Positions 1-12,024 of a stretch of 64,000 nucleotides of DNA are shown here, in pieces. The DNA is from Planococcus sp. MSAK28401 (GTDB lineage Bacteria > Bacillota > Bacilli > Bacillales_A > Planococcaceae). The stretch's first letter is position 1, and each line of letters opens with the position of its first letter. Position numbers and translations under genes: made by a program. The notes below the pieces were generated by a model. The model worked only from the letters and a program-made list of their open reading frames with translations, searched no databases and was not told the DNA's origin. Location: the NCBI RefSeq assembly GCF_018283455.1, contig NZ_JAAMTH010000001.1:1903501-1967500 (forward strand), written 5' to 3'.

Positions 1-553
1 CCAAACGGTCATCGGGGTAAGCCGCTTCGATTTCCTCGACGATGCTTTTGCCAATTTCCGCTTTTTCACCGTAGCGGACGCCGTAATCCGCCCATTTGCG
101 CTGGAAAATGAAGTTTTCATCGGTCGGATCCATCACTTTGTTCATCGCCTGCACAAAACGTTCCGGCATCGCAAAGCGCTCTTCCGATTGCGAATCGAAC
201 ACTTTTACTTGCAACGGAATGCCTTTGAATTCCTGGACATGAACATACACTTCGCCGAAATGCTCATCGATCTCGAGTTCTTCCTCGGAGCCATTGCCTT
301 CGCCGAAGACGCGCCGCACATCCGCAAGAATGCCTTCCCAGTCGGATTTCGCATTGCGTTCGACTGCCAGGAAATCTGCCACATGGTAGACGCCTTTGAC
401 GCCATCGATCTCTAAGATTTGCTGCACTTCTTTCGGTGCGCCTTCTGTTTGGTCTTTCTTGTAATTATGGCTTTTCCCGAACGGCAATTCCTGGTCGATG
501 ATCACTTTCATCGTATTCGGGCTTGGAGTCGGTTCAATCGCTAGTATTTTCAA
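1..553 (-). CDS. Conserved virulence factor C / YpgR-like protein with Nfu N-terminal domain (partial)
   Basis: The first 184 codons of a minus-strand gene whose 3' part lies left of the window. The N-terminus (MKILAIEPTPSPNTMK) is the hallmark of the NifU/Nfu N-terminal fold that opens the CvfC (conserved virulence factor C) proteins of staphylococci and YpgR of Bacillus; in that family it is followed by helical repeats that would lie outside the window. I chose a TTG start at 553 because AGGAGGG sits seven bases before it and the family motif begins there. It lies 20 bp downstream of the ABC-F gene, so it is probably last in a ypgQ-ABC-F-cvfC transcript. Its molecular role is not established; the Nfu domain hints at an iron-sulfur or redox scaffold function. 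Confidence 0.8.
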   Translation of the reverse strand, partial: MKILAIEPTPSPNTMKVIIDQELPFGKSHNYKKDQTEGAPKEVQQILEIDGVKGVYHVADFLAVERNAKSDWEGILADVRRVFGEGNGSEEELEIDEHFGEVYVHVQEFKGIPLQVKVFDSQSEERFAMPERFVQAMNKVMDPTDENFIFQRKWADYGVRYGEKAEIGKSIVEEIEAAYPDDRL

Positions 554-573
554 GATAATCCCTCCTGTGTAAA

Positions 574-2466
574 TTACGCTTCTGCCAGTTCCTGCAAATA
601 GCTCCACCGTTCGATCAATTCATCATATTCGACGGTGTAAGCATCGATTTGGTCAGTCAATTCCTGCAATTTATCAAAGTCAGACCCAGCTTTGGACATT
701 TGTGCTTCGGTCTGTTCGATTTTCTCTTCCACTTCCGCAATTTTGTCGAGTATACCGTCATATTCCTTTTTCTCGAGGAAACTCATCTTTTTCTTTTTTT
801 CAGTTGCTTGCGGTGCAGAGTCTGCAACCGGTGCGTCATTTGCCACAGTAACAGCTTGCGGCTCAACTACCGGCTTTTTTTCTTTCAGCCAGTCCGTATA
901 GAGTCCTTGGTATTCGTCGACCGTGCCGCTGCCGAGCGTCCATAGCTTTTTCGCAATTCGGTCAAGGAAAAAGCGGTCATGAGAAATGGTCAAGACGACG
1001 CCTGGGAAATTTTCCAAAAAGTCCTCTAAGACAGATAAAGTCTGGATATCCAAATCATTCGTCGGCTCATCGAGCAAGAGAATATTCGGTTTTTCCATCA
1101 ATAATTTCAGCAAGTACAAGCGCTTGCGCTCGCCTCCTGACAATTTGCCGATCAAGGTACCGTGTGCATTCGACGGGAAAAGGAATCGTTCAAGCATTTG
1201 GGTCGCGGACAGGCGAACGCCTTTTTCCGCTTCGAAATCACTTGATACTTCCTGGATGTATTCGATCATGCGCTGGGATTCGTCCATTTCCGGCAAACGC
1301 TGCGTGAAATGCGCGATCTTGACGGTGCTGCCGTAGTCCAACGTGCCACTTGTCGCTTCCAAGTCGCCAGCGATCAATTTCATAAGTGTCGATTTCCCTG
1401 CGCCGTTCGGTCCGACGATGCCAATGCGGTCGCCGCCTTGCAAGAGGAAGTCAAACGAATGGAAAATTTCATGGTCGCCGTATGAAACGCCCAGATTTTC
1501 CCCTTCAATAATCTTCTTGCCCAGTCGCTGGCTCTGCATCGATAATTCAAGGCTCGTGTTATCGGACGTTGATTGCAGATCTTCTGATAACTGGTCAAAA
1601 CGCTGGATGCGCGCTTTTTGTTTCGTGCTGCGGGCTTTCGCGCCGCGACGGATCCATTTCAGCTCCGAACGGAAACGGTTGTGCATCTTCTGTTTCGTCG
1701 CTTCGGCCATTTCTTCGCGCACGGCTTTTGCTTCCAAATAATCGCCGTAATTTCCTTTATGCGTATACATCGTCTGATCCGCCAACTCAAAGATATGCGT
1801 CGAGACAGCATCGAGGAAGTAGCGGTCATGCGTCACGAACAGCATGGCGCTGTTCATGCGCAATAGCGTTTCCTGCAGCCATTCCGTGGAGCCTGCGTCC
1901 AAATGGTTGGTCGGCTCATCCAAAAGGATCAAGTCGGCCGGTTCAATCAAGGCTTTCGCGAGTGCTACTCGTTTACGCTGGCCGCCGGACAATTCGCTGA
2001 TCTGCTGGTCGTACATATCGATGCCAAGTTTGGTCAAGGCCGTTTTCGCCAAGGCGTTGATGTCCCAGGCATTTTCGCGTTCCATGCCTTCCTGGATTTT
2101 CATCAATTCTTCCTGCAATTGTTCGGACCCCGAATCGGCGATCATGTTTTGCAGCGCTTTTTCATAAGAGCGGTTGAGTGCGAGCAGCGGCGAGTCGCCG
2201 GAGAAGACAGTCTCAAGGACGGTCAACGATTCATCGAACTCAGGCTCCTGCATCAAGTAGGTAATCCGGTATTTTTTCGGATGGTCCATTTCCATCGTGT
2301 CGGATTCGAGATCTCCTGCCAGGATCGACAAAAGAGTCGACTTGCCGGTGCCGTTGACGCCGATCAAACCGGCGCGTTCTCCCGGGTACAGCGAAAACTC
2401 GACATTGGTAAAGAGGGTCTTGACCCCCACTGATTTGCTTAAGTTTGTTACGTGTAAGTGGCTCAT
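574..2466 (-). CDS. yfmR: ABC-F family ATP-binding cassette protein (YfmR/Uup-like translation factor)
   Basis: A soluble 630-residue protein with two ABC ATPase domains in tandem and no membrane segments, the ABC-F layout. Walker A motifs are GVNGTGKS (residues 36-43) and GPNGAGKS in the second half; both halves carry LSGG signatures (LSGGQ, LSGGE) and LLDEPTN Walker B motifs. A charged interdomain linker follows the first cassette, and the last 70 or so residues are a Lys/Glu-rich coiled coil typical of the Uup/YfmR branch. ABC-F proteins bind the ribosomal E site; YfmR is known to relieve stalls overlapping with EF-P. The start overlaps the stop of the upstream HD-domain gene by 4 bp, implying translational coupling. 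The B. subtilis ypgQ-ypgR pair does not have this gene between its members, so it is an insertion relative to that order. The symbol is by best family match. Confidence 0.85.
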   Translation of the reverse strand: MSHLHVTNLSKSVGVKTLFTNVEFSLYPGERAGLIGVNGTGKSTLLSILAGDLESDTMEMDHPKKYRITYLMQEPEFDESLTVLETVFSGDSPLLALNRSYEKALQNMIADSGSEQLQEELMKIQEGMERENAWDINALAKTALTKLGIDMYDQQISELSGGQRKRVALAKALIEPADLILLDEPTNHLDAGSTEWLQETLLRMNSAMLFVTHDRYFLDAVSTHIFELADQTMYTHKGNYGDYLEAKAVREEMAEATKQKMHNRFRSELKWIRRGAKARSTKQKARIQRFDQLSEDLQSTSDNTSLELSMQSQRLGKKIIEGENLGVSYGDHEIFHSFDFLLQGGDRIGIVGPNGAGKSTLMKLIAGDLEATSGTLDYGSTVKIAHFTQRLPEMDESQRMIEYIQEVSSDFEAEKGVRLSATQMLERFLFPSNAHGTLIGKLSGGERKRLYLLKLLMEKPNILLLDEPTNDLDIQTLSVLEDFLENFPGVVLTISHDRFFLDRIAKKLWTLGSGTVDEYQGLYTDWLKEKKPVVEPQAVTVANDAPVADSAPQATEKKKKMSFLEKKEYDGILDKIAEVEEKIEQTEAQMSKAGSDFDKLQELTDQIDAYTVEYDELIERWSYLQELAEA

Positions 2467-3098
2467 TTTTTCCCATCCGTTTCGTTTTGTAGTTGCTCTA
2501 GAAAGGATAGCATAAATCGGTGGCGTTCTTCAGCCATTTGCTTTCCGCTATCCGTCACCATGCGCTCTTTCAACAGCAAAAGCTTTTCGTAAAAATGCGT
2601 TACGGTGCTCGTATCGCCGTTCCGGTATTCGCTTTCGGTCATCGCTGTGCGTGCTTGTTCATCCCGGTCATATAATTTACGACCTTTTGCGCCGCCGTAG
2701 GCAAAGGCACGCGCGATGCCGATGGCGCCGATGGCATCGAGACGGTCGGCGTCCCGGACGATTCTGCCCTCGATCGATTGCGGTTCCTCGTTCGTGCCGC
2801 CTTTAAAGGACACGGTCCGGATGATCGAACGGATGTCGCTGCGCTCTTTGTCCGACAGCTCGAGCTGCCCGAGGATTTCTTGTTCCGGGTCTTCCCCTGC
2901 TTTTTTGTATTTCGGATCGGAGACGTCATGCAACAGCACGGCAAGCTCGATCAGCGCCAGATCGCCGCCTTCCGCCTGTGCAATATGGCGGGCATTCTCC
3001 AGCACGCGCTCGATGTGTTGCCAGTCGTGGCTCGCGTCAAACTGTTCATAGATGCTTTTTACTTTCATGCGGCAGTTCGCAATTACTTGGGGATTCAT
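2463..3098 (-). CDS. ypgQ: HD-domain phosphohydrolase YpgQ
   Basis: A 211-residue single HD domain. The metal ligands are visible: His24 and His28 in SHDWQH, then the HD pair His57-Asp58 in LLHDVSDPKY, and a downstream RDADRLDAIGAIGIARAF motif that supplies the final Asp. The family (YpgQ/YedJ) hydrolyses nucleotide pyrophosphate bonds with a divalent metal; B. subtilis YpgQ, of nearly the same length, is the characterised example. The gene starts the minus-strand unit ypgQ-yfmR-cvfC. A TATAAT box at 3129-3134 (minus strand) lies about 30 bp upstream of the ATG, although I see no good -35. The natural substrate is not shown by the sequence. Confidence 0.85.
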   Translation of the reverse strand: MNPQVIANCRMKVKSIYEQFDASHDWQHIERVLENARHIAQAEGGDLALIELAVLLHDVSDPKYKKAGEDPEQEILGQLELSDKERSDIRSIIRTVSFKGGTNEEPQSIEGRIVRDADRLDAIGAIGIARAFAYGGAKGRKLYDRDEQARTAMTESEYRNGDTSTVTHFYEKLLLLKERMVTDSGKQMAEERHRFMLSFLEQLQNETDGKK

Positions 3099-3170
3099 GG
3101 ATTCTCTCCTTTAAGGTGTCCTGACTCCATTATAACGTGAAACAGGCTGAAACGGCGCTCCATCGCTGTA

Positions 3171-3199
3171 TTGACCTTGTATGCACCATCATGTATAGT
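3171..3199 (+). promoter_or_regulatory. Sigma-A promoter of the cold-shock gene
   Basis: TTGACC at 3171-3176 and TATAGT at 3194-3199, separated by exactly 17 bp, five of six consensus bases in each box. Transcription would start near 3206, giving a leader of about 55 nt before the csp start at 3261. Confidence 0.75.
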
Positions 3200-3260
3200 T
3201 AAGCCATCCATTGGCTCTAAGGCCGAGGGTCCGACAATCTGAATATTAGGGGGAAGGTCC

Positions 3261-3467
3261 ATGCACCACGGAATTGTGAAATGGTTCAATTCAGAAAAAG
3301 GCTATGGCTTTATCGAATGTGACAACGGTGATGATGTTTTTGTCCATTTTACCGGCATCCAAGGTGATGGTTTCCGATCGCTGCAAGAAGGCGCAGCCGT
3401 TTCGTTCGATATCATCGACGGCAATCGCGGGCCGCAAGCAGCAAACGTCGTGCAGGACCAACCATAA
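3261..3467 (+). CDS. Cold-shock protein, CspA family
   Basis: A 68-residue single cold-shock domain. The RNA-binding motifs are RNP1-like GYGFIE (residues about 14-19) and RNP2-like VFVHF (about 27-31), preceded by the KWFNSEKG segment shared by all CspA-type proteins. These proteins bind single-stranded RNA or DNA and act as RNA chaperones. The ATG is preceded by GGGGGAAGG. The N-terminus (MHHGIVKWF) and acidic ECDNGDD stretch differ from the usual major Csp sequences, so this is probably a minor paralogue. It stands alone on the plus strand, divergent from ypgQ and ended by a bidirectional terminator. Confidence 0.93.
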
Positions 3468-3482
3468 AAATTGAAACAGCAA

Positions 3483-3516
3483 AAGACCCAGGAATTTTTC
3501 CTGGGTCTTCTTTTTA
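3483..3516. terminator. Bidirectional terminator between csp and the cysteine-peptidase-like gene
   Basis: A 12-bp perfect stem (AAGACCCAGGAA / TTCCTGGGTCTT) with a 3-base loop. T-rich tails on both sides allow it to end both the plus-strand csp transcript and the minus-strand two-gene unit that stops at 3522. Confidence 0.9.
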
Positions 3517-3521
3517 TGGAT

Positions 3522-5486
3522 TCACGTCCAAGTATAAGTCTGGCCCCAGCTTTCGCGGGCTAATTTTTCGACTTGCTCCACATCGCTTTCCTCTACCATA
3601 TACGTGTCGCCCTGTTCGTAAGGGTTGTAATGGAACGCATACATCCTGGCGACAAATTGATGGAATGGCAGGGATGACTCGCCTTCGAGTTCGCCATTCC
3701 CGGCGACACTCGTTTCGATTCCCTGGCCCCAGTTCTGGCCGCTGTCATTGTTCGGGTTGTAGAAGTAGATGCGGTATTCCTCATCCGGATCTTCTGCCAC
3801 GCGCTGGATGGATACCGCATGGAGCCCGAGTAATTTGCCGTGGACATTGGTGATGTAGATGCCTACAGGGTTCGGGTAAATCAATTCATGGCCCTCGTTA
3901 TATTCGGGATGATGTGTCGCGTAGAACAAGCGGACGAATGCATCATAATCCGTTACAAAGCCTGTGAGCGAGTCAATGATATTGGCGAATCCACGCGGGA
4001 TCCATTCGCCGTAAAATTCTGGATTGACCCATTTGTGGCCGTCCTCGCCGCGCAGGAAGGTCTTCTTCATCATTTCGTTGTAGATTTTATCGAGATGCGG
4101 AACGAGTACGCTCGACACCGGATCCAATTCATGATGGATTTCGGCGGCCACACCATCTTCGATAACATTTGAATGGACTGCTTCGCCTTCAAAGATCATG
4201 TCGATATCGTTTTCACGCACCGCGCGTGCCACGTAATCGAGCAGCTGTGAGATGCCGTGCTGCGCCCATAAGCTGATGGCGCGAGCCGATTGGCAAGTCG
4301 GGTTCAAGCCTTGCCCGATGCCTAGCGGCTGGCCAAGAACCGAGATGACGCCACCGATGAGCACGCCATTTCCAGACAATCCACCTTTTCGGAATTCCGG
4401 GCGCAAAATCCGTTTTTTCACTTCCGGGCGGATATCGATATCGAATAATCTACGGATGCCTGGGATGATTGGATCCTGTGTCAATACGCCGCGGTCGAGC
4501 ATGCGGGACAAACCGTAAACTACGCGGCTTGTCTGCGGATAGACCGCAAAATGGATCATGTCCTGCACCAATTCCTGGTTGGCGTTAAAACTGGCCACGC
4601 CCATTTCGGATAAGTCCAAGAATTCCGGGATGAGTTCCGGTTTGCTTCTATTAATAAAGCGCAAGTAGATAGCCGCAATAGGTGCCACGAGACCCGTTTT
4701 GTTCATGGACGCCGCATATTCACGTGCTTCCTGCTTGAGCGCTTCGTCATCTGCATCAACCAATTTTTTGCGGTACGCTTTCAAGTCCGGTTCTTGTGCA
4801 CTTAACGCAGTAGGCGCAGTGACCGCCTTCTCGAAATAATGCAAGGTGTCTTTCGTATTGTCATCAATGTCTTCATCGACCATCTGCGTTGCTGCATCGA
4901 TCATCGAGACGATGCGGTCGACCATGATCGGCCGCTGTACCGTCAGCCGCTCGATCTCTTCAACGAGTTTTTGCGCAACCGCCCGGTAAGACAATTTATC
5001 GCCGAGAAAGCGGAAAAGGCGTTCGCCGCGTTCAAGATGCGCTCCTCCGCCTTCAACCCGTGCTTCTTCGGTCTCTGCAGGAAACAATAAATCCAAATTC
5101 AAAGCCAATACTTCATTCAAGAAAGCGCTGGCTTCTTCTGCCGACACTTTTTCATGTGTGTACTGCGCTTCTGAAATCGACAGCATACGCAGCTCGCTCA
5201 TCAATTCAACCACTGAATTGAGCCCTTTGACGTGAAGCGATCCGCCGACAAATGCCGGCTCCAAATTCTCCGCTTCTGCCCATGGCCCACCGTTGAATAC
5301 GCCAGCTTTGTCAAAATCAGCTGCGTAATCGTAGAGCATCGCCAATCCTTCGTCGGTTCCTGCCAGTTCCGTCGCCAGCTGGAACACTTCCGTTTGGTAC
5401 ATGCTTTTCGCAAACGGTTTTGCTTCTTCTAGCGTACGGAGGGCTTGTCCGAATTTTTCTTTTAATGTAGATGCTTCAGTTGCCAT
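3522..5486 (-). CDS. Uncharacterised 654-residue protein with a papain/transglutaminase-like catalytic arrangement, partner of an ATP-grasp enzyme
   Basis: I do not recognise a named family. Residues 1-360 look wholly alpha-helical with no membrane segments or signal peptide, so it should be cytoplasmic. Residues about 380-620 carry the most conserved-looking blocks: GLNPTCQSARAISLWAQH with Cys398 at the start of a predicted helix, GLHAVSIQRV with His556, and YFYNPNNDSGQNWGQG with Asn577, Asn579 and Asp581. The order Cys (helix), His (strand), Asn/Asp (strand) is that of papain-fold cysteine peptidases and transglutaminases. This is inference from motif order, not homology. It lies 18 bp downstream of an ATP-grasp ligase gene with a GGGGG ribosome site, so the two are co-transcribed and probably act on the same peptide or amide bond, one making and the other cutting or transferring. 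It is not SpoVR, despite a similar size class. Confidence 0.55.
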   Translation of the reverse strand: MATEASTLKEKFGQALRTLEEAKPFAKSMYQTEVFQLATELAGTDEGLAMLYDYAADFDKAGVFNGGPWAEAENLEPAFVGGSLHVKGLNSVVELMSELRMLSISEAQYTHEKVSAEEASAFLNEVLALNLDLLFPAETEEARVEGGGAHLERGERLFRFLGDKLSYRAVAQKLVEEIERLTVQRPIMVDRIVSMIDAATQMVDEDIDDNTKDTLHYFEKAVTAPTALSAQEPDLKAYRKKLVDADDEALKQEAREYAASMNKTGLVAPIAAIYLRFINRSKPELIPEFLDLSEMGVASFNANQELVQDMIHFAVYPQTSRVVYGLSRMLDRGVLTQDPIIPGIRRLFDIDIRPEVKKRILRPEFRKGGLSGNGVLIGGVISVLGQPLGIGQGLNPTCQSARAISLWAQHGISQLLDYVARAVRENDIDMIFEGEAVHSNVIEDGVAAEIHHELDPVSSVLVPHLDKIYNEMMKKTFLRGEDGHKWVNPEFYGEWIPRGFANIIDSLTGFVTDYDAFVRLFYATHHPEYNEGHELIYPNPVGIYITNVHGKLLGLHAVSIQRVAEDPDEEYRIYFYNPNNDSGQNWGQGIETSVAGNGELEGESSLPFHQFVARMYAFHYNPYEQGDTYMVEESDVEQVEKLARESWGQTYTWT

Positions 5487-5504
5487 TGATAAACCCCCAG
5501 ATTT

Positions 5505-6731
5505 TTAATGGTAGAAATCGTAATTCTCATAAGTTTTCAGCAAGTCTTCCATTTGCTCGCTATCGTCCCCGAAGAAGAACAGCGTGCCGTAATGGTTGCC
5601 GAATCCGACGCGTTCCGCCACTTTGGACGTGACCGGAATGAATAAATCGTGCTTTTCGAAATAAGAATTGTTCTTCAGTTCCAATGGGACGTCCAACTTC
5701 TCGATCAATCGGACACGCGGATACACCATCAAACTGCCGGCATAACCCGTAGCTGAGCTGACTTCTTCCGGGAAAAATTCTTCCAGCTCTTCAGCTGTCG
5801 TATCCGGGTCGCTGCATAAGATCTGTGCTTGGAAAGCGTTAAATCCATAGGCACGTTCGATCAAGTCGAAGATGTGGCCGCCAGGGACGCGTGCTGCCAC
5901 TTCACCGAAATTCAATGTCCCATCATGGGAAATGAAGTATTCCGGATGGATGACGCCGTATTTGATTTCGAACGAGTCGATCAGCTTTTGGATCTGTTCT
6001 TTAATTTGAGGGCGCCATTCTTCGAGCGCCGGTGAAGCCGGCACGAAATTGGAATGCCCGAGTTTGACGTATTCCGTGATGTTGAGGAATTTGATTTCCC
6101 CATCATGGACGAATACTTCACAAGAAAATTCCTGCCCGTCCAGATGGCTCTCCATCAAATAAGGGAATTCCTGCACTTCGATTTTGTCGATATCGTTGGC
6201 GTCCTGGATCATCATATGGCCGACTGTGCCTGCTTTATTCAATGGTTTAATGTGGATCGGGTCATTGGTATCCCCGTCTATTTTAATCAAAGCATCATTG
6301 ACGCGCTTCAAGAAGCGATGGATATCATCTTTTGAATAAGCTTCTTCAAATACGCCGACTTTAATGCCCGACATTTGCGCTTTGCGTTTCATCAAGCCTT
6401 TATCACGCAGTAACAGCGACCGGTTGAATACGCGCGGGTCGTCGAAAAAGCGTGCGTTTAAGACTCCGGCCCATTCTACGGTCTCTTCGTAAATCGGCAC
6501 CGACAGTTTTACGCCCATTTCGTTGAGTCGCTCGTATAATTCATCGGACCCTTCGTTCAAGCGGTCGAAATCCCATGGAATGAATGGAATATCGTGTTCT
6601 TTGGCAAAACTGATGAAATCCGGTGGCCCGACGACGACAAATGGCCTGTTCAATTTGTCCATCGCTTCAATCGCTGGAATGCTCCAGCCCAAAATAGCAG
6701 TCTTTTTTGATGTCGTGTTCACTTCTGTCAT
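5505..6731 (-). CDS. ATP-grasp carboxylate-amine ligase-like protein
   Basis: A 408-residue soluble protein. After an N-terminal Rossmann-like half (residues about 10-90, with TAILGW and FVVVGPP strands) comes an ATP-grasp domain: HIKPLNKAGTVGH with the probable ATP-contacting Lys162, an EFPYLMESHLDGQEFSCEVFV strand pair (about 188-208), and FGEVAARVPGG (about 275-285) with the metal-binding Glu277 and Arg281. The layout resembles carbamoyl-phosphate-synthase-type ATP-grasp enzymes such as L-amino-acid ligases and biotin carboxylase. It should form an acyl-phosphate and join it to an amine. It has its own promoter at 6762-6789, an AGGGAGGAG ribosome site, and is first in a two-gene unit with the cysteine-peptidase-like gene. 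The substrate is unknown. Confidence 0.7.
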   Translation of the reverse strand: MTEVNTTSKKTAILGWSIPAIEAMDKLNRPFVVVGPPDFISFAKEHDIPFIPWDFDRLNEGSDELYERLNEMGVKLSVPIYEETVEWAGVLNARFFDDPRVFNRSLLLRDKGLMKRKAQMSGIKVGVFEEAYSKDDIHRFLKRVNDALIKIDGDTNDPIHIKPLNKAGTVGHMMIQDANDIDKIEVQEFPYLMESHLDGQEFSCEVFVHDGEIKFLNITEYVKLGHSNFVPASPALEEWRPQIKEQIQKLIDSFEIKYGVIHPEYFISHDGTLNFGEVAARVPGGHIFDLIERAYGFNAFQAQILCSDPDTTAEELEEFFPEEVSSATGYAGSLMVYPRVRLIEKLDVPLELKNNSYFEKHDLFIPVTSKVAERVGFGNHYGTLFFFGDDSEQMEDLLKTYENYDFYH

Positions 6732-6761
6732 AAATCTGCTCCTCCCTTTCGCAATATTTTC

Positions 6762-6789
6762 ATTATACAGTTTATTATTGCCTAATCAA
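6762..6789 (-). promoter_or_regulatory. Promoter of the ATP-grasp / cysteine-peptidase-like operon
   Basis: On the minus strand TTGATT (6784-6789) and a perfect TATAAT (6762-6767) are 16 bp apart, about 30 bp ahead of the ATG. With the terminator at 3483-3516 this defines an independent bicistronic unit. Confidence 0.75.
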
Positions 6790-6833
6790 ATGGCGATAAA
6801 CATTCTTCAGGTCACAGTTGCGTGTGAACAAAT

Positions 6834-6880
6834 CAAAAAACGCCCCCTATGGAGAAACGGATATTTCTCCATAGGGGGCG
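6834..6880 (-). terminator. Terminator of the zinc-finger gene
   Basis: A 17-bp perfect stem (CGCCCCCTATGGAGAAA and its complement, 6841-6857 and 6864-6880) with a 6-base loop. On the minus strand it is followed by TTTTTTG, which insulates the downstream ATP-grasp operon from the zinc-finger gene. Confidence 0.93.
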
Positions 6881-6887
6881 TACGGGT

Positions 6888-7085
6888 TCACTTTCCGCCC
6901 GTGCCAATTTTATTTAATTCCTGCCCCAAAAACTGCAATTGGGTGCCGACTGTGCATTCGCTGATGCAAAAGCGGTGCGCCGCTGTTTTTCCTTCGTCCT
7001 TGCGGAGTTGGGCTTTGACAAAGCAGCCTTCACAATACGTATTGAGCATTTCATCGATTTCGTTGATGATGGATACTTTTTTCAT
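6888..7085 (-). CDS. Small zinc-finger protein, C2HCIx2C type
   Basis: A 65-residue protein with CEGC in its N-terminal half and HRFCISEC later, the exact H-x2-C-I-x2-C spacing that names the zf-C2HCIx2C family of Bacillales. These four Cys/His positions should hold one zinc ion; the cellular role is unknown. I start it at the ATG at 7085 (MKKVSIINEIDEML) rather than an in-frame ATG at 7109, because CGGAGGGA lies five bases before the former. It is a single-gene unit ended by the terminator at 6834-6880. Confidence 0.8.
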   Translation of the reverse strand: MKKVSIINEIDEMLNTYCEGCFVKAQLRKDEGKTAAHRFCISECTVGTQLQFLGQELNKIGTGGK

Positions 7086-7129
7086 TCGGGTCCCTCCGCA
7101 AAATGTCATTCTATTATTCTACTATGAAT

Positions 7130-7158
7130 TTGTTTTTTTCCGCAACAATCGGTATACT
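7130..7158 (+). promoter_or_regulatory. Promoter of the preQ1-regulated ypdP-ypdQ operon
   Basis: TTGTTT (7130-7135) and TATACT (7153-7158) with 17-bp spacing. The predicted transcript start near 7165 would place the whole riboswitch (7182-7220) in the leader. Confidence 0.65.
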
Positions 7159-7181
7159 GGCTTGGGACATTTTCGTCCATC

Positions 7182-7220
7182 AGCGGTTCGAAACTTCCCG
7201 CTCTACCAAAACTAAGGAGG
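7182..7220 (+). promoter_or_regulatory. PreQ1-I riboswitch overlapping the ypdP ribosome binding site
   Basis: A 5-bp P1 stem AGCGG (7182-7186) with CCGCT (7198-7202) closes the loop TTCGAAACTTC and is followed by the A-rich tail CTACCAAAACTAAGGAGG. GGTTC, the C-rich 3' side of the loop and AAAACTAAGGA match the conserved parts of class I preQ1 aptamers such as the B. subtilis queC leader. The Shine-Dalgarno AAGGAGG (7214-7220) is part of the aptamer's 3' pseudoknot strand, so ligand binding should block translation directly. The gene it controls encodes the expected preQ1 or preQ0 transporter. Confidence 0.88.
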
Positions 7221-7227
7221 AGGCAGT

Positions 7228-7923
7228 TTGTTTAATGAATTCTTAGGGCTCGGCTTCGCCCTGTTCAATTTTGTGTTATTGCTCATCATGTATAAAGTGT
7301 TCGGCAAGACCGGGCTGTTCGCCTGGGTCGCGTTCGCCACCATCCTGGCGAATATCCAAGTAACGAAAACGATTGAAATCATCGGTTTGACCGCAACGCT
7401 CGGCAATAGCTTGTATGCCTCGACTTTTCTCGCAACCGATATCCTCAATGAAAAATACGGCAGAAAAGAGGCAAAAAAAGCGGTATGGCTCGGCTTTTCC
7501 TCGCTTTTGATCATGGTCGTAACGATGCAGTTCGGCCTTCAATTCATCCCGGCGGAAAGTGATTTTGCTCACGAAGCACTCGAGACAGTCTTCGGGTTGG
7601 TGCCGCAGATCGCCATTGCCAGCATGATCGCCTATTTGCTCGCACAGCATATCGACGTCATTGTCTTTTCTGCTTTGCGAAAAATCTTTCCGAAAGACAG
7701 CCAATTCTGGATCCGCAATAACGGCTCGACCTTGCTTAGCCAATTGATCGATACCTTAATCTTCACATCGATCGCTTTTTTCGGCGTCTTTCCGTTCGAC
7801 GTCTGGATCCAGATCTTCATCTCGACCTATGTCCTGAAATTTATCGTGTCGGTATTGGATACGCCGTTTGGCTATATCGCGAAGAAAATCCGGCCGCTCG
7901 ATGAACAGGAGGCCGCGCAATGA
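7228..7923 (+). CDS. ypdP: Queuosine precursor transporter (YhhQ/COG1738 family)
   Basis: A 231-residue integral membrane protein with about six hydrophobic helices and the family's conserved core (ASTFLATDILNEKYGRKEAKK, roughly residues 71-91). YhhQ-family proteins import preQ0/preQ1 for queuosine tRNA modification, which fits the preQ1-I riboswitch just upstream. It starts at TTG 7228, seven bases after AAGGAGG. The stop overlaps the next gene's start by 4 bp (ATGA), so the pair is translationally coupled. B. subtilis has the same ypdP-ypdQ pairing. Confidence 0.9.
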   Translation: MFNEFLGLGFALFNFVLLLIMYKVFGKTGLFAWVAFATILANIQVTKTIEIIGLTATLGNSLYASTFLATDILNEKYGRKEAKKAVWLGFSSLLIMVVTMQFGLQFIPAESDFAHEALETVFGLVPQIAIASMIAYLLAQHIDVIVFSALRKIFPKDSQFWIRNNGSTLLSQLIDTLIFTSIAFFGVFPFDVWIQIFISTYVLKFIVSVLDTPFGYIAKKIRPLDEQEAAQ

Positions 7924-8309
7924 TCGAATTGTTCGTGGACGCATCGACTGCGGGCGGTGTCAACGTCAGCGCGGTTGGCGTGTTTTTAAGAGGCGAAGGG
8001 CATTCCATTAAATGGAGCGAATACGTCGGCGAAATGGATAATCACCAGGCCGAATTTACAGCGCTGTTAAAAGGGCTGGAGCTCGCTCGTCCGCTCGCGA
8101 CCGGCATGGTGTCCATCAAATCGGACTCAAAACTCGTCGTCGATGCCTTCGAAAAACGCTTCGTGAAAAATCCGGTTTACCGAAAGCTGCTTGATGAATC
8201 CTTGTCGATTGCGGACGGATTCGATTATTGCTTCATCAAATGGATTCCGGATTCCCAGAACAAGGCGGCACATACGCTGGCCAACGACAAACTCAAAGAG
8301 CATAAATAA
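7920..8309 (+). CDS. ypdQ: RNase HI-like protein (YpdQ)
   Basis: A 129-residue RNase H fold. The acidic residues Asp7 (LFVDAST), Glu45 (NHQAEFTALL) and Asp69 (KSDSKLVV) occupy the type I RNase H active-site positions, and WIPDSQNKAAHTLAND provides the C-terminal His/Asp. It lacks the basic protrusion of E. coli RNase HI and resembles the short plant/archaeal-type and YpdQ proteins. Whether it cuts RNA/DNA hybrids is not certain from sequence, although the catalytic set is intact. It is coupled to the queuosine transporter by a 4-bp overlap and followed by a terminator. Confidence 0.85.
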   Translation: MIELFVDASTAGGVNVSAVGVFLRGEGHSIKWSEYVGEMDNHQAEFTALLKGLELARPLATGMVSIKSDSKLVVDAFEKRFVKNPVYRKLLDESLSIADGFDYCFIKWIPDSQNKAAHTLANDKLKEHK

Positions 8310-8311
8310 GG

Positions 8312-8350
8312 AAAGCAGCCGTTCGACTTTGAGTGGCTGCTTTTTGCTTT
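8312..8350 (+). terminator. Terminator after ypdQ
   Basis: Stem AAAGCAGCC (8312-8320) with GGCTGCTTT (8335-8343), a 14-base loop and a T-rich continuation TTTTTGCTTT. Confidence 0.75.
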
Positions 8351-8374
8351 GGGATGCCAGAAGTTGCGCGATTC

Positions 8375-8383
8375 TGATATGAT
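8375..8383 (+). promoter_or_regulatory. Candidate extended -10 promoter for the two small membrane genes
   Basis: TGATATGAT has the TGn extension plus TATGAT. I see no -35 match. It lies about 30 bp before the 8414 gene, downstream of the ypdQ terminator. Confidence 0.4.
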
Positions 8384-8413
8384 GGTGTCATACTGATTTA
8401 CTGGAGGCTATAT

Positions 8414-8626
8414 ATGAGATCGAAACTAGGAACCGCACTCGATATTTTCATCATCCTGATCGGCCCATTCATCATCTACGCCCGCATCGTGGACATCATG
8501 CAAAACGGCGTATCGCTCTATCCGTTATTGTCGGTGATCATTGTCGGGCTCGCACTCGCTTTCGCCGTCTTCAATTTGGTCCAGCTGTTGAAAGAACGGC
8601 AAAACAGCACTCCGCGCAAAAAATAG
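8414..8626 (+). CDS. Small two-helix membrane protein, function unknown
   Basis: A 70-residue protein with two hydrophobic segments (about residues 9-27 and 36-58) and a basic C-terminal tail (KERQNSTPRKK), which suggests both ends face the cytoplasm. GGAGG precedes the ATG by seven bases. I do not recognise the family. The next gene, 18 bp downstream, is also a small membrane protein, so the two may work together. Confidence 0.65.
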   Translation: MRSKLGTALDIFIILIGPFIIYARIVDIMQNGVSLYPLLSVIIVGLALAFAVFNLVQLLKERQNSTPRKK

Positions 8627-8644
8627 CAGAAATGAGGATCTCCC

Positions 8645-8971
8645 TTGAAAACGCTTTTATTGTATCTCGTTCCATTAATCGTTTACGCACTGATGAATAA
8701 TCTGGTCAACGACAGCTTTACCTGGCCGCAATACTTGATACTATTGTTCGCTTTTCTGGCGTTTCAGCTCGGCCGGCTGCGCTATCCGAAAAACGAAGTG
8801 CCGCCAGCTGCAAAAGTGACGCAGGCCGTCTTTTATGTTTTGACGGTCGCAATCATTTTCCGCGATAAGTACCTGGACGCCGGGCTGGTCAATTTGATGA
8901 TCGCCCTTGTGGCAGTATTTGTCATCGTCGAATGGATCATCGCCAAACCGCAACAGAAAGCAAATACGTAA
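8645..8971 (+). CDS. Small polytopic membrane protein, function unknown
   Basis: A 108-residue protein with about four hydrophobic helices (residues roughly 3-14, 24-41, 57-75 and 80-100) and a short polar tail. It begins at TTG 8645 behind a weak GAGGAT site. It is the second gene of a small operon with the 70-residue membrane protein and is followed by a strong terminator. No motif points to a function. Confidence 0.65.
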   Translation: MKTLLLYLVPLIVYALMNNLVNDSFTWPQYLILLFAFLAFQLGRLRYPKNEVPPAAKVTQAVFYVLTVAIIFRDKYLDAGLVNLMIALVAVFVIVEWIIAKPQQKANT

Positions 8972-8976
8972 ACGCA

Positions 8977-9012
8977 AAAACGCGAAGCCGCTATCCCTGG
9001 GCTTCGCGTTTT
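8977..9012. terminator. Bidirectional terminator
   Basis: A 13-bp perfect stem AAAACGCGAAGCC / GGCTTCGCGTTTT (8977-8989, 9000-9012). It lies between the convergent plus-strand membrane gene and the minus-strand 39-codon gene. Confidence 0.85.
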
Positions 9013-9026
9013 CCTATGCATATTCT

Positions 9027-9146
9027 TTAAATGACATACCATAGGATAAACAGCACGACCGCAATGCTGACCCATGTGATGATGCGGACCAAATTGCGTT
9101 TTTTGCGCAATTCTTCTTGTTCTTTGACGTCTTTTAGCAGCGGCAT
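9027..9146 (-). CDS. 39-residue single-helix membrane protein
   Basis: A short gene read on the minus strand: a basic/acidic N-terminal half (KDVKEQEELRKKRN) followed by one hydrophobic helix (about residues 20-38) that runs to the C-terminus. A near-ideal AAGGAGGG lies seven bases before the ATG, and the TAA is followed directly by the bidirectional terminator. These three signals make it a real gene despite its size. The charge pattern predicts an N-in, C-out tail-anchored topology. No family is recognised. Confidence 0.65.
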   Translation of the reverse strand: MPLLKDVKEQEELRKKRNLVRIITWVSIAVVLFILWYVI

Positions 9147-9223
9147 TTCTTACCCTCCTTGCTGTATTTCATTTCCCAATGCTTCCTGCTTCGATTATGA
9201 TGAATAAAAAGGAGGTTTTCAAG

Positions 9224-10237
9224 TTGAAAAAATGGCTTTTCCCCGTGATTCTTGCAGCAGCACTTGCCGGATGCAGCAATGCGCCGGCGAATCCCGATGA
9301 AGCGACCGCCCCTGCAGATGTAATCGCCACAGACCTTGAAGCCCCTTGGTCAATCAATAAGCAAGGAGACGACTTCTATATCTCAGAACGCCCAGGGACA
9401 GTTGCTTATATTGATGCAGAAGGAAAGTTGGAACGCCAGGACGTCAATTTCTCTTCGCCTTTATCCTCTGCTTCTGAAGCTGGATTTCTCGGGTTCGTAC
9501 TGAAACCGGATTTCGCTGACTCACAGGAAGCTTACGGCTATTATGTTTATGAAGATAATGGCAATTCTTATAATAAAATTGCGGAATTTCGTTTAGACGG
9601 GGGAAGCTGGTCGGAAACGGCCGTTCTCTTGTCAGGTATCCCGACAGGCAATGTCCATCACGGCGGCAGGTTAGAATACAGCGAAGACGGCACCCTATAT
9701 GCCACAATCGGAGACGCATCTGAACCAGATCTTGCGCAGGACCCCGCTTCAGTCAATGGAAAGATTCTCCGCCTCAACGAATTCGATGAATTTGAAATCT
9801 ATTCGCTTGGCCATCGCAATCCACAAGGCTTGGCATGGGACGAGGAGACGATGTATGCCTCGGAGCATGGCCAATCCGCAAACGACGAAATTAATATCAT
9901 CGAACAGGATGCCAATTATGGCTGGCCCAATATCGAAGGGGATGAAACGGCCGATGGTTTAAAAGCGCCGCTTGTCACGAGCGGTTCAGATGATACATGG
10001 GCGCCAAGCGGGATCGATTTCCACGACGGTGCGCTGTATATCGCAGCACTTCGCGGGACAGCGATTAAAGTGATGGATCCAGAATCGGCAGAAATCACCG
10101 ATTCCATTGAAGGATACGGGCGTATCCGCGACGTCTATTCGGACGGGGACGATTTGTATTTCATCACGAATAATACCGATGGCCGGGGAACCCCGACAGA
10201 AGGCGACGACAAATTGTATATTTTAAATGAGCAATGA
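9224..10237 (+). CDS. PQQ-type sugar dehydrogenase (glucose/sorbosone dehydrogenase family) lipoprotein
   Basis: A 337-residue exported lipoprotein: a KKWLFPVILAAA signal ends in the lipobox LAGC with Cys17 as the lipidated residue. The mature part is a beta-propeller of the GSDH family, with HHGGRLEYSEDGTLYATIGD (a family active-site block including the catalytic His), a GHRNPQG motif, and SEHGQSANDEIN followed by NYGWP. Related enzymes oxidise aldose sugars with PQQ and calcium outside the cell. I use the TTG at 9224, eight bases after AAGGAGG, instead of an upstream in-frame ATG at 9179 with no ribosome site. No PQQ synthesis genes are in the window, so the cofactor may be scavenged. Flanked by terminators on both sides. 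Confidence 0.85.
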   Translation: MKKWLFPVILAAALAGCSNAPANPDEATAPADVIATDLEAPWSINKQGDDFYISERPGTVAYIDAEGKLERQDVNFSSPLSSASEAGFLGFVLKPDFADSQEAYGYYVYEDNGNSYNKIAEFRLDGGSWSETAVLLSGIPTGNVHHGGRLEYSEDGTLYATIGDASEPDLAQDPASVNGKILRLNEFDEFEIYSLGHRNPQGLAWDEETMYASEHGQSANDEINIIEQDANYGWPNIEGDETADGLKAPLVTSGSDDTWAPSGIDFHDGALYIAALRGTAIKVMDPESAEITDSIEGYGRIRDVYSDGDDLYFITNNTDGRGTPTEGDDKLYILNEQ

Positions 10238-10267
10238 AAAAAGCGGAGACCAGTGTCTCCGCTTTTT
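10237..10267. terminator. Bidirectional terminator
   Basis: A 14-bp perfect stem AAAAAAGCGGAGAC / GTCTCCGCTTTTTT with a 3-base loop, between the convergent dehydrogenase and acetyltransferase genes. It begins at the last base of the dehydrogenase stop codon. Confidence 0.93.
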
Positions 10268-10277
10268 TATTTCATTT

Positions 10278-10775
10278 CTATAGTTTCAGCACCATCAACA
10301 ATTCATCGATGTAACGGCTGTCCGCCTTTTGGGCATTCGGTGTCGTGCCGATGCGCCGAAAGCCGGATCGTTCGTAAAAACGAATCGCATGCGGGTTTGC
10401 TGAATTGACGGCCAGTTCAAGCTGTTCGAGCCCATCCCATTCATTTGCAAAGGACAGCAACTGATCAAAAAGCGTTGACGCAACCCCTGTCCCTCTTGTT
10501 TCTTCCGCTGCATAGACGGCGAGTACTTCGGCTCTGTGGCTGGTCTTCTTCCCCGACAATCTGAGCAGTGTCATCATGGCGAGCAAACGGTCTTCGTCGT
10601 ACGCACCGAAGGTCACGGCTGAAGGATTGGCGAGATTGTTAGCGGTCGCACTCACCGGTCTTTGGCTTGCTTCATTGAAATCAGTCGAAAACGCATCGGC
10701 ATCTGTCTGCAATGCCGTTAAGCGAAGTTCCCGATACTGTTCAGCATCTTCATGTGTTAATCGTCGATAGTCCAT
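10278..10775 (-). CDS. GNAT family N-acetyltransferase
   Basis: A 165-residue GNAT domain. The acetyl-CoA pyrophosphate loop is ETRGTGVAS (R-x-x-G-x-A type) after the strand AEVLAVYAA, and NPHAIRFYERSGFRRIG is the usual C-terminal motif B. The acceptor substrate cannot be told. I start at ATG 10775 (MDYRRLTHED), preceded by AAGGGTGA. A longer in-frame start at 10847 would overlap the upstream LD-carboxypeptidase by 56 bp. It lies 16 bp downstream of that gene, so the two probably share a transcript. Confidence 0.85.
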   Translation of the reverse strand: MDYRRLTHEDAEQYRELRLTALQTDADAFSTDFNEASQRPVSATANNLANPSAVTFGAYDEDRLLAMMTLLRLSGKKTSHRAEVLAVYAAEETRGTGVASTLFDQLLSFANEWDGLEQLELAVNSANPHAIRFYERSGFRRIGTTPNAQKADSRYIDELLMVLKL

Positions 10776-10791
10776 GACACTCACCCTTTCT

Positions 10792-11802
10792 TTAGCGGAA
10801 TTCCTGGACGACACGCCCTTTTCCATCGTCAACGTGGAAAGTCGCATGCGCCCCGTTGACCAAAATCACTTGCGGCGGTTGATGGCCGATATCGGCATCA
10901 TAAACGATGGGGATTTTTAATTGCTCCGCCAGTTCCTGGTACACCATCTCCGCAGTATAGCTTTGTACGGCATCGTTCGCTTCGCTTCTGCCGAAGACGA
11001 TTCCGGAACAATTATCGAACCAGCCTGCATATTTCATCTGCAGCAAACTGCGCTTCAAATCCGGTGTGTTCATTTCGCAGTTTTCCAAGAACCAGACAAT
11101 CGGTTCACCTGGAATGGATTTTTTCCGGAAAGCAGCGACGTCCCCATATGGCGTACCGATAAGGTGGCGGATCACATCGATGCATCCCCCGAGAAGACGG
11201 CCTTCCAACCGTTCCCCTTGTCCCGATACGGTTTTCCAAACGGTCGGCTCGGTCAAGTGGAAAACGCCAGGAGCCGGCTTGTCATGGCTCCAATTTTTTT
11301 GGTACCGCTCAGAAGAGACTTGTTTAATGACCGTGCCTTTCGTCGAAGACAGCATATCCACCCAGCGCGCAGTAGTCGGATCGGTTTCGCTGCCGCGCAA
11401 GTCGACGATATTGGTGCCATGTGCTGTCGCGATCCCGGTATTTAACGTAATCGCCAAGGCCAGCAAGCTCACGTCCGAATACCCAAGAAGCCATTTCGGG
11501 GTGAACTTCTGGAAATCCACATGCTCCAATACTTCCAATAACAACTCACCACCCCATGGCGGGATGATCGCGTCGACTTTGGAATCACGCCAAATGTTGA
11601 TCAGTTCTTTCGCGCGGATGGCTGCAGGGGACGACTTGGCTTCTTTTTGGGTCCAGGCATTCGCCGTGGTCTTAACAGCAAAGCCTTGCTGCTCCAATTG
11701 GGCAATCGCCCCTTCAAGCAAATGATGGAGTTCTTCAGAAACCCCTGATGAAGGTGCCGTAACGCCGATGGTTTTTAGCGCTCGATCGGGATAGCGGATC
11801 AT
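10792..11802 (-). CDS. S66 family peptidase (LD-carboxypeptidase / MccF-like)
   Basis: A 336-residue cytoplasmic S66 peptidase. The nucleophile Ser109 is in the conserved LLGYSDVS turn, after the PPWGGE strand; the Glu and His of the triad fit ENCEMN and ADIGHQPPQ. Within S66, LdcA-type enzymes trim the L,D bond of recycled tetrapeptides in muropeptide turnover, while MccF-type enzymes cleave aminoacyl-nucleotide toxins. The length and the DLRGSETD insertion look closer to the MccF/YocD branch, but this is not decisive. It lies between a small membrane protein gene (12 bp away) and an acetyltransferase gene. Confidence 0.85.
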   Translation of the reverse strand: MIRYPDRALKTIGVTAPSSGVSEELHHLLEGAIAQLEQQGFAVKTTANAWTQKEAKSSPAAIRAKELINIWRDSKVDAIIPPWGGELLLEVLEHVDFQKFTPKWLLGYSDVSLLALAITLNTGIATAHGTNIVDLRGSETDPTTARWVDMLSSTKGTVIKQVSSERYQKNWSHDKPAPGVFHLTEPTVWKTVSGQGERLEGRLLGGCIDVIRHLIGTPYGDVAAFRKKSIPGEPIVWFLENCEMNTPDLKRSLLQMKYAGWFDNCSGIVFGRSEANDAVQSYTAEMVYQELAEQLKIPIVYDADIGHQPPQVILVNGAHATFHVDDGKGRVVQEFR

Positions 11803-11814
11803 CGTCTCTCCTCC

Positions 11815-12024
11815 TTACCAATTAATATAATTGAACAACACATAAACGATGCCCAGCAGTAAAGCAGCTCCAAAACCGGTTAATACCACATGGACCAATC
11901 CGTCAACTAACAGATTTGGCTGCTTGTCGAGACGCTTGCCTTTAAACTGCGAAAAATCCGGTGGCGTTTCTTTCAGATTACGTTGCTGGATAGACAGGTC
12001 AGTATCCTCGAATTGCTTGCTCAT
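11815..12024 (-). CDS. Small single-pass membrane protein, function unknown
   Basis: A 69-residue protein: a polar, basic N-terminal 40 residues (DLSIQQRNLKETPPDFSQFK) and one long hydrophobic segment (about residues 40-66). The ATG follows GGGGTGTATAT. It is the first gene in a minus-strand unit with the S66 peptidase and acetyltransferase. The region upstream (12025-12136) is very AT-rich and may carry its promoter, but no clean box pair stands out. Family not recognised. Confidence 0.6.
   Translation of the reverse strand: MSKQFEDTDLSIQQRNLKETPPDFSQFKGKRLDKQPNLLVDGLVHVVLTGFGAALLLGIVYVLFNYINW

Follow-up and report, generated by a model that had tools for sequence, protein, structure and literature searches.

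A pair of genes, here designated A and C, was analysed in a stretch of 64,000 nucleotides from Planococcus sp. MSAK28401 (contig NZ_JAAMTH010000001.1, positions 1,903,501 to 1,967,500), which is referred to as the window. A codes for a protein which can be filed as an ATP-grasp ligase, and C codes for a larger protein of an unnamed family with the predicted active-site residues of papain-like cysteine enzymes. The two genes form an obligate pair, which was found in the same order at all loci collected. The pair is proposed to be the core of a stress-induced biosynthetic module in which a diamino acid, for example, ornithine, would be acetylated and converted to an amide; we consider this reading plausible, if somewhat short of an even chance. 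Pairs of ATP-grasp ligases and papain-like peptidases were reportedly proposed by Iyer et al. in 2009, and literature searches, which did not cover that work, found no published description of the A-C pair. As far as the literature was searched, a pair combined with an acetyltransferase, with genes for ornithine, and with control of the SigB-like type seems to be a variant not yet described.

Pairing and distribution of A and C

Relatives of C were collected by a pattern search of species-representative genomes, in which 582 places were confirmed. The best 80 of these, together with one record from Halomonas, make up a set of 81 loci. In 81/81 loci, the gene immediately upstream of C, in the same orientation, is A, with gaps of -26 to 129 bp when the starts of the longest open reading frames (ORFs) are used. 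In a sample of 200 genomes of the Planococcaceae, C was present in 28 and intact in 26, and exactly those 26 genomes gave scores of 715-788 bits with the profile of A. In the family genomes lacking an intact C, no score with the profile of A exceeded 70 bits, and these scores came from other ATP-grasp proteins. An earlier note on this DNA, which was made from the letters of the window, had treated the two genes as a functional pair, and their co-occurrence is borne out by both surveys. In one genome of the same genus (G026; L226:7718-9413), a 42-residue remnant of A precedes a truncated C with a stop inside the matched stretch, so that both genes have decayed there. The distance matrices of A and C also correlate (r 0.82, reached in 0/1000 permutations), a value for which species relatedness was not controlled.

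The occurrence in genomes is patchy. Within the genus, 14/28 were positive, one of the 14 with the decayed copy. Positive genomes numbered 9/299 in a sample of the class and 1/299 in a sample of the phylum, the latter being the window's own genome; in other groups, which are overlapping sets, they numbered 9/159, 3/10, 4/42, and 2/197. Among the best 80 of the 582 places, the nearest named relatives of C are from Planococcus, with 99% and 98% identity. A search of plasmids for C gave one match, on a 1.8-Mb replicon of Halomonas which carries the pair at L111:4711-8049, showing that the module is not confined to Bacillota. In PLSDB, the record of this replicon has a single annotated feature across its length. 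A phage origin of C was considered and rejected, since no match was obtained in phages and none of 35 pattern matches in viral contigs was confirmed. Genome G905, which has the pair, contains two convergent copies of C.

Assignment of proteins A and C

Protein A matches the Pfam domain ATP-grasp_4 (PF13535) with 39.8 bits, above the curated cut-off of 27. As a single sequence it matched the solved structures 4wd3 (E 2e-10) and 3vot (E 4.4e-4) in the PDB, and a profile of 53 members gave lower E values for both (6.9e-13 and 4.4e-6, resp.). These matches allow A to be classified among the ATP-grasp enzymes as one of the L-amino-acid-ligase type, and by homology it is likely to form an amide bond at the cost of ATP. 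With the L-amino-acid ligases 4wd3 and 3vot (BL00235), A shares the ATP-grasp_4 domain and a similar length, and its alignment with 4wd3, some 240 residues long, contains the G-E-x-A-x-R segment. Ligases of this kind are named as the RizA/BacD type. A differs from them in being distant in sequence and obligately paired with C, and we know of no described L-amino-acid ligase system with a C-type partner.

For protein C, no match at E<=1 was identified in Pfam, NCBIfam, or PADLOC, and none at E<=10 when the single sequence was compared to the PDB; one weak match was obtained in PHROGs (E 0.039). The remark in the earlier note that C is of no family known to its author is in agreement with these searches. 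Relatives of C occupy 582 places in species-representative genomes, yet the family is matched by none in the libraries searched.

The evidence for an active site comes from conserved residues. In an alignment designated A1, which combines 52 C proteins with 15 paralogues encoded downstream (C2), at identities down to 32%, Gln392, Gly393, Cys398, His556, Asn577, Asn579, Asn580, and Asp581 are identical in 67/67 rows. In the 81 first-copy C proteins, seven positions were tested, including Gln392, Cys398, His556, Asn577, Asn579, and Asp581, and all seven were kept in 81/81. The Halomonas copy, with 38% identity, likewise retains the residues invariant in A1. Cys398 is the only column with a cysteine in more than half of the first copies. 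The earlier note had pointed to Cys398, His556, and Asn577/Asn579/Asp581 as the set to look at; no homologue which had lost them was encountered among the first copies, the 15/15 C2 proteins, or the Halomonas copy.

The order Gln, Cys, His, Asn of papain-like (clan CA) enzymes is present and conserved in C. In 13/13 Peptidase_C1 domains from Bacillota which were compared, the distance from Gln to Cys, read from the sequences, is six, as in C; a Gly directly follows the Gln in C and in 10 of the 13. His556 is located within an HAV/HAI motif, resembling most of these domains. The Gln and the HAV/HAI motif strengthen the papain-type reading given in the earlier note, but the comparison of profiles failed a block-shuffle control. 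When residues 360-654 of C were aligned to a Peptidase_C1 alignment with hhalign, a score of 25.2 (P 0.0081) was obtained in the His region only. This score was reached by 0/150 column shuffles but by 34/100 shuffles of ten-column blocks, and the comparison was therefore not counted as evidence.

On its residues, C looks like a papain-type thiol enzyme which cannot yet be filed as a member of that group. The likeness to clan CA (Peptidase_C1, calpains, and transglutaminases) consists of the invariant Gln-x5-Cys, His (HAV/HAI), and Asn in the same order. C differs by having no demonstrated sequence relationship to them, by an NPNND motif where Peptidase_C1 has NSW, and by an N-terminal part of 360 residues without known relatives. 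In the P. citreus copy of C (L032), 19-residue Kyte-Doolittle means do not exceed 1.36, so that no strong hydrophobic stretch is present.

Several other candidates for the identity of C were discarded. Searched one by one against Pfam, the 67 members of A1 matched 43 families at E<=1 (best E 0.003) in a scattered and disagreeing manner. A herpes tegument family, which gave the best E of 0.003, and AP5B1, matched by 10/67 members, were dropped for lack of agreement, and no papain-like family was present among the 25 listed of the 43 families. The profile of C gave five matches in the PDB (E 0.46 to 8.2); all are N-terminal and are probably chance matches.

Partner genes and promoters

Partner genes were identified as clusters of neighbours within 6 kb of the pair in the 81 loci. 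The earlier note had described a closed two-gene unit, which proved to be too narrow, since a GNAT-like or AblB gene adjoins the pair in 46/81 loci and C2 follows in 19/81. The GNAT-like gene codes for a protein of about 189 residues and is divergent from A in 35 loci; the gene for the acetyltransferase AblB adjoins the pair in 11, and the two were never present together (0/81). AblB is above the TIGR03827 cut-off in 3/3 scanned of the 11 (L081, L086, and L094) and also in the further pair loci L231 and L234. The GNAT-like profile matches the solved GNAT structure 3ey5 (E 2.5e-6). A high-scoring class of GNAT proteins (264-310 bits) was found in 20 of the 200 family genomes, 19 of which carry the pair, the exception being G017.

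Genes of ornithine and osmolyte metabolism were identified at some loci. In L055, L057, L059, and L060, arg genes directly follow C: argJ in 4/4, argC and argB in three, and argD in L060, with the names coming from scans of L055, L057, and L060 and the remainder from clusters. In L057, L059, and L060, the three of these with C2 in the analysed stretch, the arg genes are located between C and C2. Two argJ copies above the cut-off are present in each of these genomes, so that the copy adjacent to the pair is a dedicated one. In L234, rocD, coding for ornithine aminotransferase (735 bits, cut-off 656), is located 85 bp ahead of the ablB beside the pair. Such ornithine genes thus adjoin the pair in two lineages, and on the basis of the dedicated argJ copies and of rocD, ornithine is the best guess at the substrate. 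Genes for osmolytes include ectC, coding for ectoine synthase, after C in L090 (scanned) and L091 (by cluster); in L094, downstream of C, BADH-betA-proB, for betaine-aldehyde dehydrogenase, choline dehydrogenase, and glutamate 5-kinase; and gbsA-gbsB upstream of the pair in L229. The betaine count leaves out the unscanned BADH-like members of clusters in L053 and L110. In a metagenome-assembled Bacillus, a carboxynorspermidine synthase-like gene (below the cut-off) and decarboxylase genes are located upstream of the module (L055:1054-3436), a possible link to polyamines which, being limited to one locus, was set aside.

The features of the window's own pair are collected in Table 1. The ORF list bears out the arrangement in the earlier note of an ATP-grasp gene followed after 18 bp by a 654-residue ORF, in coordinates, strand, and gap.

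Table 1: Features of the A-C pair in the window (positions are those of the window; codons refer to protein C).
Feature	Position	Strand	Basis
A, ATP-grasp ligase, 408 residues	5505..6731	-	nearest solved relative is the L-amino-acid ligase 4wd3
C, 654 residues, unnamed family, predicted papain-like cysteine acyltransferase or amidase	3522..5486	-	ORF and residues
Gln392 codon, predicted oxyanion-hole Gln, 6 residues N-terminal to Cys398	4311..4313	-	invariant 81/81
Cys398 codon, predicted nucleophile, sole conserved Cys	4293..4295	-	invariant 81/81
His556 codon, predicted catalytic His	3819..3821	-	invariant 81/81
Asn577-Asp581 codons (NPNND motif), Asn577 the predicted third catalytic residue	3744..3758	-	N577, N579, D581 invariant 81/81
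SigB-like promoter GTTTAT-N13-GGCAAT, 70 bp ahead of the A start codon	6777..6801	-	upstream alignment and motif scoring
SigA-like promoter TTGATT-16-TATAAT	6762..6789	-	promoter scan; complete in 4/14 aligned upstream regions
12-bp terminator hairpin separating C from the convergent gene	3483..3509	.	terminator scan and perfect arms
18-bp hairpin with T-run, terminator of the same-strand upstream gene, insulating the pair	6840..6881	-	terminator scan and perfect arms

The consensus promoter claimed in the earlier note exists as a SigA-like motif. Its support is reduced by the promoter scan, which gave 2 sites versus a shuffle mean of 4.5, and by the aligned upstream regions of Planococcus and Planomicrobium, in which it is complete only for the window, L032, L033, and L037. 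Invariant in all 14 regions are the bases GTTT and GG-x-AAT and the TAT inside the SigA-like -10 element. The consensus of SigB promoters is of the type GTTT-N14-16-GGGWAW. The invariant GTTT and GG-x-AAT follow this pattern, and the motif to which they belong is therefore designated SigB-like. Both promoters of the window's pair may be real.

For a wider survey, the SigB motif was scored as matches of ten with a threshold of at least 9; the window's site scores 9/10. L031 was left out, its upstream stretch being too short, so that 80 loci remain; the control genes, which are not independent, were drawn from these related loci themselves. Sites at the threshold were found in 32/80 loci over the 250 bp preceding A, versus 79/491 other genes and 46/400 shuffles. 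For the 40 Planococcus or GNAT loci, 26 have such a site at -60 to -95, versus 10/491 genes and 28/1600 shuffles, a span which was chosen after the positions within 250 bp had been seen. Of these 40 loci, 13 belong to the Planococcus alignment from which the motif was first noticed; all of them score at least 9 (13/13), and they are not an independent test. Among the 27 GNAT loci outside Planococcus, which were not used for motif discovery, 13 score at least 9, both over 250 bp (control 79/491) and at -60 to -95. The GNAT-like gene itself is preceded by a SigB-like site in 22/35 loci versus 47/482 controls over the same span, and C2 in 1/19. Judged by these motif scores, the Planococcus and GNAT-type clades tend to have a SigB-like site on both sides of the divergent unit, in contrast to AblB-type and other clades.

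The hairpin at the end of C has perfect 12-nt arms (3483-3494/3498-3509), and the one upstream of the pair has perfect 18-nt arms (6840-6857/6864-6881), where 17 bp had been claimed by the earlier note; its role in insulating the upstream neighbour is supported. Both are among the 10 sites of the terminator scan (shuffle mean 5.7). The hairpin assigned to C was called on the plus strand, where its T-run is better; the convergent gene is therefore served by it no less well than C. In Rfam, window positions 1-12000 gave no match at the gathering threshold.

Proposed function and rival explanations

The following pathway is proposed for the module. A GNAT-like protein, or AblB in other lineages, would acetylate a diamino acid, most probably ornithine, at its side-chain amine; an acetyltransferase acting on a side-chain amine is suggested by the name of AblB. 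Protein A, as expected from its homologues, would use ATP to activate a carboxylate as an acyl phosphate, which on reaction with an amine would yield a small peptide-like amide. C, as a cytosolic papain-type enzyme, would then form an acyl-thioester on Cys398, with Gln392, His556, and Asn577 as its oxyanion and catalytic partners. From there the acyl group would go to a second acceptor or, where the compound has to be removed, to water. The product may be a compatible solute or a general stress protectant, as is suggested by the SigB-like sites and, more weakly, by the osmolyte genes.

According to a passage of PMC2412884, Halobacillus halophilus accumulates N-delta-acetylornithine and N-epsilon-acetyllysine, and the corresponding N-delta-acetyltransferase is called unidentified in a passage of a 2013 review (PMC4187189). 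The pair is present in a strain named H. halophilus (AcN7-4, L100) and in Planococcus citreus (L032). The latter reportedly makes N-delta-acetylornithine, for which a literature search found no paper. In a more specific version of the proposal, GNAT, A, and C would be the missing pathway to a Gram-positive ornithine-derived osmolyte, either N-delta-acetylornithine or an amide of it, under control of the general stress sigma factor, and C would found a new papain-type family whose thioester builds a protective molecule instead of cutting proteins. As a whole, this version is speculative and regarded as unlikely.

Several observations weigh against a stress-induced synthesis module of this composition. 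The window's own locus has neither acetyltransferase gene nor a second C adjoining the pair, and its genome is among the 7/26 intact carriers without a high-scoring GNAT protein. The best GNAT match in that genome, with 226.8 bits, is a widespread lower-scoring paralogue beside pur-like genes (L221:8647-9360; common in family genomes and without a match in NCBIfam at E 1e-30). The one GNAT-like protein scanned remained below the Pfam cut-off of 27 with 24.9 bits (E 2.7e-5). ArgJ was found neither in the genome of the window nor in that of P. citreus, so that in both ornithine would need another source, and ornithine or osmolyte genes, as judged from clusters and by eye, adjoin the pair at no more than a few among the 81 and the 4 further loci (L227, L229, L231, and L234). 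SigB-like sites at -60 to -95 are present in 0/40 of the other loci, which over 250 bp have 6/40, the control rate, and before AblB in 0/11. For C, a papain fold is a prediction made from residues. Solitary extra genes also exist: A in G176 and G149 (656-663 bits; L222:8110-9342 and L223:8858-10087), and C without A in G137 (L224:8440-10410). The solitary A genes are about 64% identical to A of another locus, and both genomes also hold a complete pair; the solitary C is about 70% identical to C of another locus, in a genome which also has the pair and C2.

A make-and-break cycle, as favoured by the earlier note, would have A form a peptide or amino-acid amide and C hydrolyse it, setting the level of a signal or storage amide. 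The common operon, the obligate pairing, and the papain-type residues of C agree with it. However, A and C appear to share one promoter, so that ATP would be wasted unless C is regulated, and the C2 copies in 19/81 loci would be easier to understand as two transfer steps than as two hydrolases; we regard the cycle as rather unlikely. The dedicated argJ, the SigB-like promoters, and the few osmolyte genes point to stress-induced synthesis rather than to such a cycle, and C could transfer instead of cleave. These small-molecule genes (arg genes, rocD, and ablB) also argue against a modification of proteins, in which A would attach an amino acid or a peptide to some target protein, with C removing or cross-linking it. 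Comparable pairs of ATP-grasp enzymes and peptidases are said to have been proposed in comparative work, but the enzymes nearest to A have names that refer to free amino acids, and among ORFs of at least 80 residues near the pair, no small protein family recurring across genera was seen, which makes protein modification quite improbable. Finally, the pair might produce a secondary metabolite, that is, an antibiotic or siderophore-like peptide. L-amino-acid ligases are said to make antibiotic dipeptides, and the presence in only half of the genus, with one decayed copy, would fit. Set against this are the SigB-like control in part of the family and the genes around the pair, among which no exporter or tailoring enzyme recurring across genera was seen, save ABC-type ATPases, a very large family; this explanation is considered just as improbable.

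The proposed synthesis module was also compared to known osmolyte systems. The NAGGN system consists of a TIGR03104 amidotransferase, a GNAT-ATP-grasp protein, and an M42 peptidase. The combination of an acetyltransferase, an ATP-grasp ligase, and a peptidase-like protein is similar, and L090 has an asparagine-synthase-like gene nearby. The module differs in that A is not a fused GNAT-ATP-grasp protein, the type of peptidase is another one, the amidotransferase of L090 reaches 361 bits versus the TIGR03104 cut-off of 570, and no amidotransferase is located beside the window's pair. Neither a GNAT-ATP-grasp fusion nor a TIGR03104 model was among the ten NCBIfam matches of A at E<=1, and NAGGN was rejected as the identity of the module. 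In L090, from Oceanobacillus, the amidotransferase gene (L090:1086-2987) is divergent from ablB, with the order amidotransferase, AblB, A, C, EctC.

The AblAB system for N-epsilon-acetyl-beta-lysine is similar in the AblB homologue adjoining the pair in the 11 loci mentioned, to which the window does not belong. It differs in the rest of the module and in lysine 2,3-aminomutase (AblA), which was not recognised beside the pair by eye, no profile search being made. To the osmolytes of H. halophilus described in passages of PMC4187189 and PMC2412884, the module may be linked by the strain so named, L100, which carries the pair; L100 has neither GNAT nor AblB in the analysed stretch.

The module is a testable candidate for the synthesis of acetylated diamino-acid solutes in Halobacillus and Planococcus, a step called unidentified in the cited passage of the 2013 review (PMC4187189). 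The SigB-like sites flanking the divergent unit indicate when to look for the product. If it is true that C builds a solute by papain-type chemistry, its superfamily, of which cleavage and cross-linking are the main known activities, would gain a biosynthetic branch. As a minor observation on the locus set, a record titled Chryseobacterium sp. ISL-80 (L050) contains a typical Bacillaceae-like copy of the module, and its label looks wrong.

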